The notes below the pieces were generated by a model. That model did not search any database and was not told the DNA's origin. It saw only the letters and a list, made by a program, of their open reading frames with translations. Shown in pieces: positions 40,002 through 63,432 of a DNA stretch of 64,000 bases. The stretch spans positions 803,001 to 867,000 of the forward strand of contig NZ_CP097562.1 in NCBI RefSeq assembly GCF_000487995.2, given 5' to 3'. The stretch is from Mucispirillum schaedleri ASF457 (lineage in GTDB: Bacteria; Chrysiogenota; Deferribacteres; Deferribacterales; Mucispirillaceae). The first letter of the stretch is position 1, and each line of letters starts with the position of its first letter. The position numbers were made by a program, and so were the translations under genes.

Positions 40002-40022
40002 AAGGTGGGGGGGGGGAAAATG
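40002..40022 (+). promoter_or_regulatory. Ribosome-binding site with a G10 homopolymer next to the start codon
   Basis: AAGGT at 40002-40006 is followed by ten G (40007-40016), three A and the ATG at 40020. The G run separates the AAGG core from the start by 14 bases and can itself pair with the anti-Shine-Dalgarno sequence. Slippage in the run would change ribosome-binding-site spacing. Confidence 0.7.
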
Positions 40023-59048: not shown

Positions 59049-59412
59049 TTAACTTCCTTTTATATAAATATAATTTTTACACTTTAACATAAATATATAA
59101 ATAAAAGCAACTTTTAATTTTAACTATGGCACTTCTATTTTTTGTGTAAGTCCAAAGTATATGAGTGCTTTACTATATGTATTTTGAATGTGGCAGCATT
59201 TTTATACTGCATATATTTTTGAAATACTAAAATATGTCTTCCTGAGTAAGTATCAGCGAGCAAAGGAACTATAAAACATCACCATTATAGATACTTCGCC
59301 TTTTAGGCTCAGTATGGCAAAAGTTGAAGTATATAAATATTTTACTTAACTTTATATATTTTTTAATGAAGTAACATTTTTATACTGCATATATATTATT
59401 AATACTAAAAAA
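59049..59412. repeat. Gap with repeat copies and the left arm of an inverted repeat
   Basis: No gene. About 59195-59312 matches the complement of 63840-63957 with only scattered differences, including the dispersed repeat core at 59285-59318. A part of this, AACATTTTTATACTGCATA, recurs directly at about 59373-59391. The right portion of this gap (59345-59393) also matches the complement of 63937-63985. Confidence 0.7.
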
Positions 59413-59438
59413 ACAGACAGAGAAAATTCTCTGCCTGT
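59413..59438 (-). terminator. Terminator of the phase-variable lipoprotein gene
   Basis: An 11-bp stem (59413-59423 with 59428-59438) with a 4-base loop. On the minus strand the single mismatch becomes a G-U pair and seven T follow, so it ends transcription of the lipoprotein gene whose stop is at 59477. Confidence 0.85.
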
Positions 59439-59476
59439 TGTTTTTGTCTTTATTACTTATTCACTTTTAGATAGGA

Positions 59477-60195
59477 TTAATTATTTTTTAATTCATATTT
59501 TATATCTTGGCTAAAATTATTAATCACTGGAGTATCATAAGGTGTATTAGGATCTAACTCAATAACATCATTACTTGTTTTTTTCATACGGATAACAGTA
59601 TCTGCTGGCATAACAGTTTTATCCGTTACCCTGCTAACTACTATTCCATCTTCTGCAACAGTAAAATTAAATGTATTTTTATCACTTTTTGTTTCGTCAA
59701 CTAATGTTTTTGCACTTCTGCCATATGTTCCTTTAATGTCATTACCAGCTGCAGCATTAATAGTAGTCTTACTTATTGCACTACTTGGTACTGTCGGAAA
59801 CTCTGTAAAATTATATGTTTTATCTGATGCAACAGATTGTATAATGGAAGAAGTATCAAATACTCCACCATTAATTTGAACTTTTGATATAACTTTAACT
59901 GAACCATTATCATTAACTTTGATTGTAGCTTGTCCTTTATGCTTAACTCCATCAGTATCTGGTTTATTACATTTTTTAGCCTCTGCTCCAATATATGTTG
60001 CAACCATAGAACAATCTGTTGTTAATGTTTCTACCTTAGCATCAACATAGAAAAACTCAATATTATATGTCCCTTCCAAAGACTTAAGTGTTACAGGGTC
60101 TGTTAAGTCTATACCACTGTCACTACTGGAATCATCACTGCATCCAGTAACTAAAAATACAAGTAAAATACTTGTTAAAATAAAAACTTTTTCAT
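59477..60195 (-). CDS. Surface lipoprotein, start codon one base out of frame (phase-off or broken)
   Basis: The ATG at 60195, seven bases after GGAGG, opens MKKFLF and hits a stop after six codons. One more A in the A5 run right after ATG would give MKKVFILTSILLVFLVTGC, a textbook lipoprotein signal peptide with lipobox VTGC, continuing without interruption for about 240 residues. The mature protein starts with a Ser/Asp-rich linker (SDDSSSDSG), then a beta-rich domain with two Cys. The last part (residues about 100-200) has no known family. The present frame is open only from a TTG at 60079, which would remove the signal. It has a strong promoter with a C10 tract and a clear terminator. Either a phase-off gene or a recent pseudogene. 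Confidence 0.7.
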
Positions 60196-60223
60196 TGTAT
60201 TCCTCCGTTAAAAAATTTTTGCC

Positions 60224-60251
60224 ATTATAACGGGGGGGGGGATTTTGTCAA
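60224..60251 (-). promoter_or_regulatory. Consensus sigma70 promoter with a C10 tract in the spacer
   Basis: On the minus strand, TTGACA (60246-60251) and TATAAT (60224-60229) are both perfect. The 16-base spacer between them includes ten consecutive C (60232-60241). The -10 lies about 30 bases before the lipoprotein ATG. Loss or gain of one or two C would move spacing away from or to the 17-base optimum, the mechanism known for Neisseria porA and opc. Confidence 0.8.
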
Positions 60252-60377: not shown

Positions 60378-60935
60378 ATGACAAATATGCAAAACTTAAT
60401 TGAAAGAATAAGAATAAAAATTAATGATACAGCTTCTTTTGAGTTTCAAGATAATGAGCTTTTATCATATATTCATGAAGGATTATCTATGCTTGAAATG
60501 CTGATGTTATCTAATAAAGTGCAGTTTAATATTACATATCTTTACACTGCTTCATCAATATGCCCTGTGCCAGAAGATATGCTTGAAATACATAAAATAG
60601 TATCTGATAACAAAGAAATGCCACTTAAAGATGTAACTGATTTATCCTATGGTTATTATATTTTAAATAATAGTATTATTCTTCCATGTGCTAATGCTGA
60701 AATATATTATATTAAGGAATTTGAAAGATGTAATATTAGTGATGATATAAATCTTCCAAATATTTATATAGAGTATCTTTATAATAATGCAGTAATCAAA
60801 GCCCTTTCAAGATTAGAGTTTAATATGGAAAATGAAAAAAATGAACTTATGCAGCTTTCTTCTTTAATTATTAAAACTGCACTTCATAAAAACAGCATAT
60901 ATCAAATGAAAAGATATAACGGGTATGCTTTATGA
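60378..60935 (+). CDS. Phage head-tail connector/adaptor-like protein
   Basis: A 185-residue helical protein. Layout and motifs (LIERIRIKINDTASFEFQDNELLSYIHEGL at the start; FNMENEKNELMQLSSL near the end) resemble small adaptor proteins that join portal and tail in phages such as P22 gp4. It is preceded by TTAGGAGC and overlaps the next gene by ATGA. No portal, capsid or terminase gene is nearby. Assignment by pattern only; a structure search would test it. Confidence 0.5.
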   Translation: MTNMQNLIERIRIKINDTASFEFQDNELLSYIHEGLSMLEMLMLSNKVQFNITYLYTASSICPVPEDMLEIHKIVSDNKEMPLKDVTDLSYGYYILNNSIILPCANAEIYYIKEFERCNISDDINLPNIYIEYLYNNAVIKALSRLEFNMENEKNELMQLSSLIIKTALHKNSIYQMKRYNGYAL

Positions 60936-63079
60936 AAAAATCATCATATCATTCAAAAAACAGTGTATTAAAACTATATAAACCAATAGGTGGTATGTGT
61001 AACACCATAAGTGGCGAATATATAAAAGATAATCAGGCTTGCAGTATAAGTGGTGTTATATATAATGAAGATACAAATACATTTCAAGGCTCACCAGCTT
61101 ATAAATCAGTATCTTCTTTTGCAGGCAGAAAGTTTGCAAGGCTTTTCAATGTAGAATATAACGGAAAAAATGCTGTTTTTGCAACTTATGCAGGCGGCAT
61201 TGCAAATATTACTGAAAATAAATATTATCAAGTAGAAACAGGTATAACACCAACTGATATTATATATAACCAAGACGGGCTTTATATTTCATCTTCATCA
61301 AATGTATATCATCTAAATCCAAATGGAGAGCTTACTAAAATAGCTTTTTCATTTGCACCATTTATGTGGCAGAGAATATCTGCAAGGCAGAGTGTGGATA
61401 CTCTTACAAATGCAGCTGCTTATTATGGAGATAAAATATATTTCAGTGACAGCCGCGGAACTGGTTATATGTCTATAGATGGAAAAAATGTAAAAATATT
61501 AAATCATGAAATAAAAGTAATTGAATTTTTCCCATGCAGCAATACTCTTTATGCCTGCGATGCAACTGATATATATACAATATCGGGAGATGAATTTATA
61601 CACTTTTTAAATTTTTCACATCTTGGTTTAAAAGTCAGAGTGTGTGCATCTACTGCTTACAGCTTATTAATTTTAGATTACAATACAGCTTATGAAATAT
61701 ATGAGATAAATACTTTAACAAAAGCAATTAAAAAATATAATGTTAATGCTTTAAAAGGACTTGGCACTTACGGCATAAAATATTTAAGGGTTATTGATAA
61801 CAAGTTTTATTTATTAGTTAATGAAACTGATGCACTGTTTTCAAATAATACTGCATCTCTTTACAGGCTCTCATTTAACGGCAAAGAATATAATATTGCA
61901 GAAAGATTATTTGAAAACTATACCATAAAAAATTTTTTACAAGATGTTTTTTATATCAATTCTAAACTAATATGCTATTTTGGCTCAATTAATGAAAACT
62001 CTGCATTAAATGATACAATAGAGCTTTATGAATGCAGCAGGGAAATGTTAGTCTATCTTGATTATTCAAACAGTCCTGCAAATGCTGCAGCTGCTCAAAA
62101 ACTTTCTGTTAAAGGAAACAGGCTTTATTGTGCAAATAATTATGGCATGTATTATGTTGACATTTTACCATCAGATGAAAATATCCCATGTCTTTTAGTG
62201 CAGAATGGCAGGCTTATAGTGCCGCAGAACTCTAATTTATATTTCAGTGGTGCAGGTGATTTTTATAACTGGTCATGGAATACTGACAGTGACGCACAGT
62301 TTATAGAAATTGGATATAAAGACGGCGGCAGAATAATTTATACTGCCCTTGTGCTTGACAGTATTATTGTTTTTAAAGATAACGGCAGTATATACAGGCT
62401 TGCAGGCAGTTATCCTTACTGGACTGTATCAAAACTTGGCGAAATAGATAAACTTACCACAAAAGCTATTGTATATGGCTCTGAAATCATTTTTGGAGCA
62501 TCTTTTGGCATAAAAAAAATAGGAGTTACAGAATATTATGGTGATTTTTTCTTATCTGATTACCAGCAGTATATTCATGACAAAAATATATCAGATGTAA
62601 GCCTGTGTTCAGAAAGAAACACTATTATTTTTATAAATAATGAATATATTTTTGAATACAGCAGTATTTTAAAAGGATTTACTGTTTATAAAAATAATTT
62701 AACAGATAAATTAATGCAGATTATTGAAATATATGAAAATAATAATACATATTCCAGCTATGGATTAGATATAAATGGCAGGCTTTATAAAGCAGATAAA
62801 AATATGCGTAACAGCATAGATGTAAAATATAAAGAAATTAAAAACAATCAAGATATTTTAATTAAATCAATTACTGTTTTTACACCAATGTTAAAAACTA
62901 ACAAAATATTTAAATTAAGTATAAATGAATATAATAACACATTTACTTTAAAGGCTGATAGAATACGCCATAAATATTTTATTTTAAAAAGATTAAATAA
63001 CTTGCAAATAAAATTATCCCATAATGGTGATTTTTTTATAGATAATATTTTTATAGAATACTCCACTATTGGAGAATAA
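60932..63079 (+). CDS. Phage tail/stabilisation-like beta-propeller protein
   Basis: A 715-residue protein made of repeated short beta strands. NLYFSGAGDFYNW (about residues 434-447), SIIVFKDNGSIYRLAG and EIIFGASFGIKKIG match the propeller body of podovirus tail-tube or P22 gp10-like proteins, in which a (Y/F)FS-x-x-GD-x-x-(D/N)W motif and an FF-x-x-GS(I/V)Y motif are frequent. There is no signal peptide. Overlap with the upstream gene indicates a coupled operon. The Asn/Ile-rich composition matches the host genome, arguing for long residence. Confidence 0.6.
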   Translation: MKKSSYHSKNSVLKLYKPIGGMCNTISGEYIKDNQACSISGVIYNEDTNTFQGSPAYKSVSSFAGRKFARLFNVEYNGKNAVFATYAGGIANITENKYYQVETGITPTDIIYNQDGLYISSSSNVYHLNPNGELTKIAFSFAPFMWQRISARQSVDTLTNAAAYYGDKIYFSDSRGTGYMSIDGKNVKILNHEIKVIEFFPCSNTLYACDATDIYTISGDEFIHFLNFSHLGLKVRVCASTAYSLLILDYNTAYEIYEINTLTKAIKKYNVNALKGLGTYGIKYLRVIDNKFYLLVNETDALFSNNTASLYRLSFNGKEYNIAERLFENYTIKNFLQDVFYINSKLICYFGSINENSALNDTIELYECSREMLVYLDYSNSPANAAAAQKLSVKGNRLYCANNYGMYYVDILPSDENIPCLLVQNGRLIVPQNSNLYFSGAGDFYNWSWNTDSDAQFIEIGYKDGGRIIYTALVLDSIIVFKDNGSIYRLAGSYPYWTVSKLGEIDKLTTKAIVYGSEIIFGASFGIKKIGVTEYYGDFFLSDYQQYIHDKNISDVSLCSERNTIIFINNEYIFEYSSILKGFTVYKNNLTDKLMQIIEIYENNNTYSSYGLDINGRLYKADKNMRNSIDVKYKEIKNNQDILIKSITVFTPMLKTNKIFKLSINEYNNTFTLKADRIRHKYFILKRLNNLQIKLSHNGDFFIDNIFIEYSTIGE

Positions 63080-63096
63080 ATGAACGGAGAAAAATT

Positions 63097-63432
63097 ATGA
63101 GTTTTTGGGAAGGATTTAATAAACTTCTTTTTGGAGAAAACAAGGCAGGCTCAAAACAGAAAGAGCAGTATGATAAATTAGCAAATTATGATAACAGAGT
63201 GGAAGATTTTGAAAGTTTAAGTGGAAATGTTATAAATGAAATGGCAAACCGTGGAATAATCAATTCTTCTGTTACTGGAAAAGCCTTAGGCAGTGCTGTG
63301 GCAGAAGCTGAAAATAATTACTGGAACGACCAAATGAAATTATTAGGTTACAGCTATGGCACAGATAAAAAAGGTATAGCAGAAGATTTATCATCAACTT
63401 TTACAAAAAGCTTTGTAAAAAGCATATTTTAA
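63097..63432 (+). CDS. Small phage-like structural protein
   Basis: A 111-residue protein starting MSFWEGFNKLLFGENKAGS, with the segment MANRGIINSSVTGKALGSAVAEAENNYW. Short proteins with a RG(I/L)xNSS motif occur beside tail or internal virion proteins in podoviruses. Third gene of the phage-like run, 17 bases after the propeller gene, GGAGAAA ribosome-binding site. After its stop only repeats follow. Confidence in coding is fair, in function low. Confidence 0.5.
   Translation: MSFWEGFNKLLFGENKAGSKQKEQYDKLANYDNRVEDFESLSGNVINEMANRGIINSSVTGKALGSAVAEAENNYWNDQMKLLGYSYGTDKKGIAEDLSSTFTKSFVKSIF

Follow-up and report, generated by a model that had tools for sequence, protein, structure and literature searches.

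The poly-G contingency loci of Campylobacter and Helicobacter act mostly by frameshift inside genes. These loci (the phasome; PhasomeIt, PMC6321876) resemble those of the Mucispirillum genome considered here in the AT-rich setting, in the many G9-G11 tracts and in the surface-structure genes concerned, and homopolymeric tracts within coding genes are presented as general regulators by Orsi et al. (PMC2831843). Closer in arrangement are two systems in which the tract lies in a promoter. In porA of Neisseria meningitidis (van der Ende 1995), a poly-G homopolymer occupies the core spacer between the -35 and -10 elements, and in tp0126 of Treponema pallidum, encoding an OmpW homologue, a poly-G tract is likewise found between -35 and -10; a change in spacer switches expression in both, with 17 nt being best (PMC7864442). 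The opc promoter of Neisseria, ahead of an outer-membrane protein gene, is also controlled by a tract, of poly-C; there the tract extends over the -35 region, and its effect is thought to be regulator-mediated (PMC7864442).

The locus studied here lies in a window of 64,000 nt, meaning the whole stretch of DNA that was analysed, which covers bases 803001-867000 of a single contig; its features are collected in Table 1. Gene content and AT-richness assign the DNA to Mucispirillum, and it is most probably from the closed ASF457 chromosome (PMC9600240). The promoter reads TTGACA AAATCCCCCCCCCCGT TATAAT on the minus strand (60251..60224), with two perfect hexamers, a 16-bp spacer in the order AAAT(C10)GT and an ATG 28 nt past the -10. 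Both this promoter, as given in the preliminary description, and the placing there of a ribosome-binding site and ATG within 30 bases of the -10 proved exact when the sequence was read again.

Table 1. Coordinates of the features of the poly-C promoter locus within the window.
Feature	Position	Strand	Remark
-35 element TTGACA, perfect	60246..60251	-	sequence read
C10 tract (G10 on + strand) within 16-bp spacer AAATCCCCCCCCCCGT	60232..60241	-	one of the genome's 43 C9+/G9+ tracts
-10 element TATAAT, perfect, without TGn extended -10	60224..60229	-	sequence read
Ribosome-binding site GGAGG	60202..60206	-	sequence read
Start codon (60195-60193) and six-codon frame ATG AAA AAG TTT TTA TTT TAA (MKKFLF*)	60175..60195	-
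Lipoprotein reading frame, KVFILTSILLVFLVTGC lipobox, ~237 aa	59477..60192	-	frame displaced by one base relative to the ATG
Intrinsic terminator, 12-pair stem, 4-nt loop, T-rich tail	59412..59439	-	just past the lipoprotein stop codon

As in porA and tp0126, the tract sits between -35 and -10 and overlaps neither, and a run of ten C is of slippable length and far above chance. It neither overlaps nor replaces the -35 region, TTGACA being intact and 4 nt ahead of the C10; of the two Neisseria genes to which the locus was likened, porA is a fitting parallel and opc, with a poly-C that reaches into its -35 region (PMC7864442), is not. With 36 nt between its end and the ATG downstream, the C10 is not inside a reading frame, as a Campylobacter-type tract would be; other tracts of the same genome are. 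An alternative in which tract length alters regulator binding or DNA curvature, instead of core spacing, has precedents in opc (PMC7864442), nadA (PMC2791445) and Helicobacter sabA (PMC4081817), but it is quite improbable here given the clean position of the tract between two perfect hexamers and the fact that, in most pairwise comparisons, no shared operator was seen beyond ~25-60 bp of promoter.

We regard it as highly probable that this is a sigma-70-type promoter whose slippery poly-C sets the -35/-10 spacing, and one of about ten phase-variable promoters in the Mucispirillum genome. Slipped-strand mispairing at replication would add or remove one C, the distance between the hexamers would move by one base around its working range, and promoter strength would be altered, so that the downstream gene, for the most part a lipoprotein gene, would go randomly up or down and its product be made in some cells and not in others. 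We infer such slippage in the population, its transcriptional effect and a benefit from it. At the present locus, with a spacer of 16, one gain would give 17 and two losses 14. In E. coli, with consensus hexamers, spacers of 15-19 bp are tolerated and activity drops outside this range (PMC8695583); since RNA polymerase works well throughout it, a single step from 16 might change little here. Loss of mismatch repair was considered as the cause of the many tracts and rejected, as mutS (full-length mutS1) and mutL are both present and intact in the genome.

It had been proposed that two perfect hexamers with the tract exactly between them are unlikely by chance. Shuffling gave an expectation of 0.55 perfect TTGACA/TATAAT pairs with a 14-21 spacer per window, and genome-wide such pairs are no commoner than the reversed control pattern (22 versus 20), so that perfect hexamers by themselves are weak evidence. 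The tract inside them is decisive: C7-C11 is enclosed by 7 of the 22 perfect pairs and by none of the reversed controls, and the proposal stands for the tract, not for the hexamers alone. G/C runs of 8 or more have an expectation of 0.07 in the window, where run lengths go from 1 to 5 and then to two of 10. The 2,347,083-bp genome has 43 runs of 9 or more against about 0.36 expected under a first-order model built on the window's composition, and eight of these 43 C9+ tracts begin 1-4 nt after TTGACA (0.06 expected); through paralogy the eight are not fully independent, and six would still far exceed chance. The near-equal counts of pairs and reversed patterns are what would be seen if AT-rich DNA had by accident yielded two perfect hexamers on either side of one poly-C run. 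Chance alone is nevertheless rejected, with practically no probability left to it, on the ten occurrences of the composite in one genome (TTGACA-N1-4-C7-11; reversed control 0), its recurrence across the genus Mucispirillum, its strongly directional placement ahead of genes and the 22/20 comparison taken with the tract.

The ten sites share one design with variable detail. The -10 box is TATAAT in seven, TAAAAT in one and TATAGT in one, the last site being degenerate and without a clear -10; the spacer, 16 at 60224-60251, is 14, 15, 15, 14, 16, 14, 17 and 15 at the others and 14 at the degenerate site. Tract lengths range over C7-C11, and in all ten the C lies on the non-template strand. Seven sites, the present locus included, precede lipoprotein genes, four of which form one paralogous group that includes the gene at 59477..60192; the remaining three precede a GtrII-type glucosyltransferase gene (PF14264), a gene for a small membrane protein followed by one for an Mrr-type nuclease and, behind the degenerate copy, uvrB. 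Such a set could also come about if a promoter cassette or repeat had spread, recombination at the tract making the copies, with any phase variation incidental. Two sites (L093 and L094, near 1921193 and 1933225) share 127 bp of upstream sequence at 98.4% identity, with homology ending at the tract, which may be the recombination point; the tracts are C11 in one copy and C10 in the other, and the copy ahead of uvrB is without a good -10. In addition, the 27-mer TTGACATTC9ATGATATAAT is repeated at unrelated genes. Most sites, however, are alike only in the core and a short adjoining stretch, and differ in their flanks and in the spacer edges (AAAT/AAT/TT before the tract, GT/GTT/ATGA after it), so that spreading as the whole explanation is unlikely; spreading and switching are compatible, and both can be true.

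In the phylum, the full pattern was found in nine of ten Mucispirillum genomes, the tenth being 57% complete, and in a single genome from a sister genus in the family, and in none of 40 other Deferribacterota genomes; the reversed control gave one match across all 51 phylum genomes. Long G/C runs are common in Mucispirillum and in the sister genome with the pattern; in a further genus of the family they are scarce in three of four genomes, the remaining one carrying a few of great length. The promoter of an MQKKK-type lipoprotein gene, TTGACATTC9GTGATATAAT, is letter-identical in three species despite diverged preceding DNA, which indicates that selection would act on the hexamers and the tract together. 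For a TRL-family lipoprotein gene, the genome considered here has C10 and a spacer of 16, whereas the nearest species has C9 and a spacer of 15, and the bases adjacent to the tract differ. Exactly C9 is kept across species by several orthologues, and the tract is absent from the orthologues of the GtrII gene and from most TRL orthologues, so that the switch would have been both gained and lost.

Conservation of this kind, with C9 the commonest tract in all lineages (76 of 117 among the matches listed), could also come from a fixed promoter class in which the demands of DNA shape or of a binding protein keep the poly-C at one length (mode C9) and nothing switches. The constancy of C9 in some orthologues supports such a class, but the C7-C11 spread among ten sites of one genome, the one-C differences between related loci and the many C9+/G9+ tracts inside genes of the same genome, including paralogues frame-broken at the tract, speak against it, and a mode of 9 also fits a length equilibrium, the poly-G of T. 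pallidum tprL being mostly 9 with a range of 7 to 11 (PMC7864442). We consider a fixed class unlikely, if somewhat less so than the other alternatives. The homopolymer spacer switch of the preliminary description is strongly supported as a class, by the ten sites, their recurrence in the genus, the promoter kept between diverged flanks, the C7-C11 range and the position on the start-codon side.

At the locus itself the gene is another matter. The lipoprotein frame, with its LVTGC lipobox, is 7 nt shorter in the signal peptide than in six relatives (own genome and nearest species), the missing 7 nt falling between TTAT repeats, and no upstream ATG, GTG or TTG restores it. Because the frame is shifted directly after the ATG, the gene in the present assembly is probably a pseudogene, or else a copy kept off by a second lesion, unless the assembly is in error or ribosomes shift frame at AAAAAG. 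Rescue of the gene by a -1 ribosomal frameshift on AAAAAG was weighed, on sequence support only, and rejected, a 7-nt deletion between the TTAT repeats being simpler. The switch would here probably drive a dead or currently disabled gene copy. Loci of the porA/tp0126 type usually, if not by strict definition, control a gene that is intact and related to the surface; this is seen at six sister loci and not at this one, where the frame is broken; the earlier view of a surface lipoprotein as the target is thus right for the gene family and wrong for the assembled gene, which opens MKKFLF* and is frameshifted straight after its ATG. The lipoprotein had no Pfam or PHROGs match and no family, and no relatives among IMG/VR viral contigs, in which the promoter pattern had one match. 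Its transcription unit is probably monocistronic, as the terminator follows right after the stop codon; two terminator-like sites were found against 0.3 expected. Divergent genes at 60378-63432 (+) read like phage structural proteins, with no PHROGs match at E 0.01.

Beyond the promoter set, more than 30 further G/C tracts are associated with glycosyltransferases, acyltransferases, sensors, a StcE-like peptidase and molybdopterin enzymes, and glycan, sensor and secreted-protein genes contain many of the C9+/G9+ tracts, a pattern familiar from genomes known to carry contingency loci. The second G10 of the window (40007-40016, +; GGTGGGGGGGGGGAAAATG) takes the place of the Shine-Dalgarno sequence of a gene for a methyl-accepting chemotaxis protein, with 3 nt between its end and the start codon (ATG, 40020), and slippage there could alter translation; a frame from an upstream ATG is also open through it. 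Three further tracts of G9-G10 (L255, L258 and L262, near 1729882, 2103557 and 2307925) lie just upstream of the start codons of an MQEKTLK-starting gene, an MSKIVFEKE gene and a vgrG-like T6SS spike gene, respectively, and may form a translational switch class. At five loci a G9 lies near the N-terminus of large genes: L261, which matches molybdopterin oxidoreductase and has a TAT signal; L001, L011 and L013, whose GCSKD signal region is that of L261 as well; and L256. The long downstream frame at the G9 is continuous with the signal peptide in L261 and not in L001, L011 and L013, as would be expected for frameshift phase variation. An in-frame C9 (L253, near 1558496) occurs in a secreted M66/TagA peptidase with a ricin-type lectin domain (StcE-like). 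Intragenic G9-G10 tracts at eight loci (L014, L016, L018, L025, L026, L027, L259 and L260) fall in genes for an ATP-grasp enzyme, two MBOAT acyltransferases, a histidine kinase, a GT2 and two GT9 glycosyltransferases and a sulfatase-family protein, which are usual target classes of frameshift phase variation.

A scan of ~85,000 species genomes returned at least 114 stretches with the promoter pattern. The lineages among the matches listed are Mucispirillum, many uncultured Clostridia, Treponema and Bipolaricaulota, with single matches including Glaesserella and Histophilus. Among the non-Mucispirillum matches listed, the start of an ORF of 80 or more aa lies 12-75 nt past the -10 in 54 of 74 and on the mirrored side in 3 of 74, which argues that most of these sites are real promoters. 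The architecture, its multiplicity, its recurrence over species and phyla, its orientation towards genes and the differences in tract length between loci and species can all be read from the genomes themselves. Thirteen non-Mucispirillum genomes have 1 to 10 sites each, and no match to the reversed pattern. The number is 8 to 10 in three Clostridia-type MAGs, which measure 0.8-1.0 Mb, and two Treponema genomes differ as C8 versus C9. The spacers of 39 C9 promoters in 13 genomes are of 14 (3), 15 (19), 16 (11), 18 (1), 19 (3) and 20 (2), with none of 17, under a pattern that could detect spacers up to 20. Set against the 15-19 bp window of E. coli, this preference for 15-16, with some at 19-20, suggests to us that these promoters would stand near the edges of tolerance, where one slip matters most. 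Outside Mucispirillum the poly-C design, in tiny-genome Clostridia, Treponema and others, is apparently of independent origin. A broader proposal, that poly-C spacer promoters arose independently, as a multi-gene system of random expression, in several uncultured lineages of gut and environment (Mucispirillum, 0.8-1.0 Mb Clostridia with as many as ten in a genome, Treponema and Bipolaricaulota), with modal spacing at the tolerance edges so that a single slip would flip a gene, is put forward tentatively, at rather less than even probability.

M. schaedleri is a mucus-dwelling gut bacterium that is linked to inflammation and belongs to the defined Altered Schaedler Flora. If the proposed switching is true, the promoter set before lipoproteins, together with the >30 further G/C tracts, would make the cell surface differ between cells. 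A resource paper on this flora compared stock with mice and reported that SNPs were numerous and that there was little sign of extensive indels, in a comparison that did not cover single-base tract changes (PMC9600240). Mucispirillum is not mentioned in a 2025 review of phase variation (PMC11868660), the words phase, slippage and homopolymeric are absent from the main text of the Mucispirillum genome paper (PMC5285517), and no relevant paper on phase variation or homopolymeric tracts in Mucispirillum was found in the literature searched, which consisted mainly of open-access journal papers. The preliminary description had known of no such promoter in this kind of organism, and for the phylum this agrees with the literature searched.

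The type of switch is thus already known; what appears new, going by that literature, is its occurrence in this organism and phylum and its use at multiple loci. In contrast to Campylobacter and Helicobacter, the Mucispirillum promoter tract would act at transcription, and unlike opc its hexamers are intact and outside the tract. Compared with porA, the run is of C on the non-template strand, the hexamers are perfect, and ~ten loci occur in one genome of another phylum. Compared with tp0126, the tract is on the other strand, in another phylum and in a multi-locus family mostly preceding lipoproteins; the C version of the promoter is also found in Treponema MAGs. Since the promoter design recurs in uncultured lineages that are unrelated to one another, transcriptional switching through slippage in the spacer may well be more widespread than the few examples from pathogens imply.
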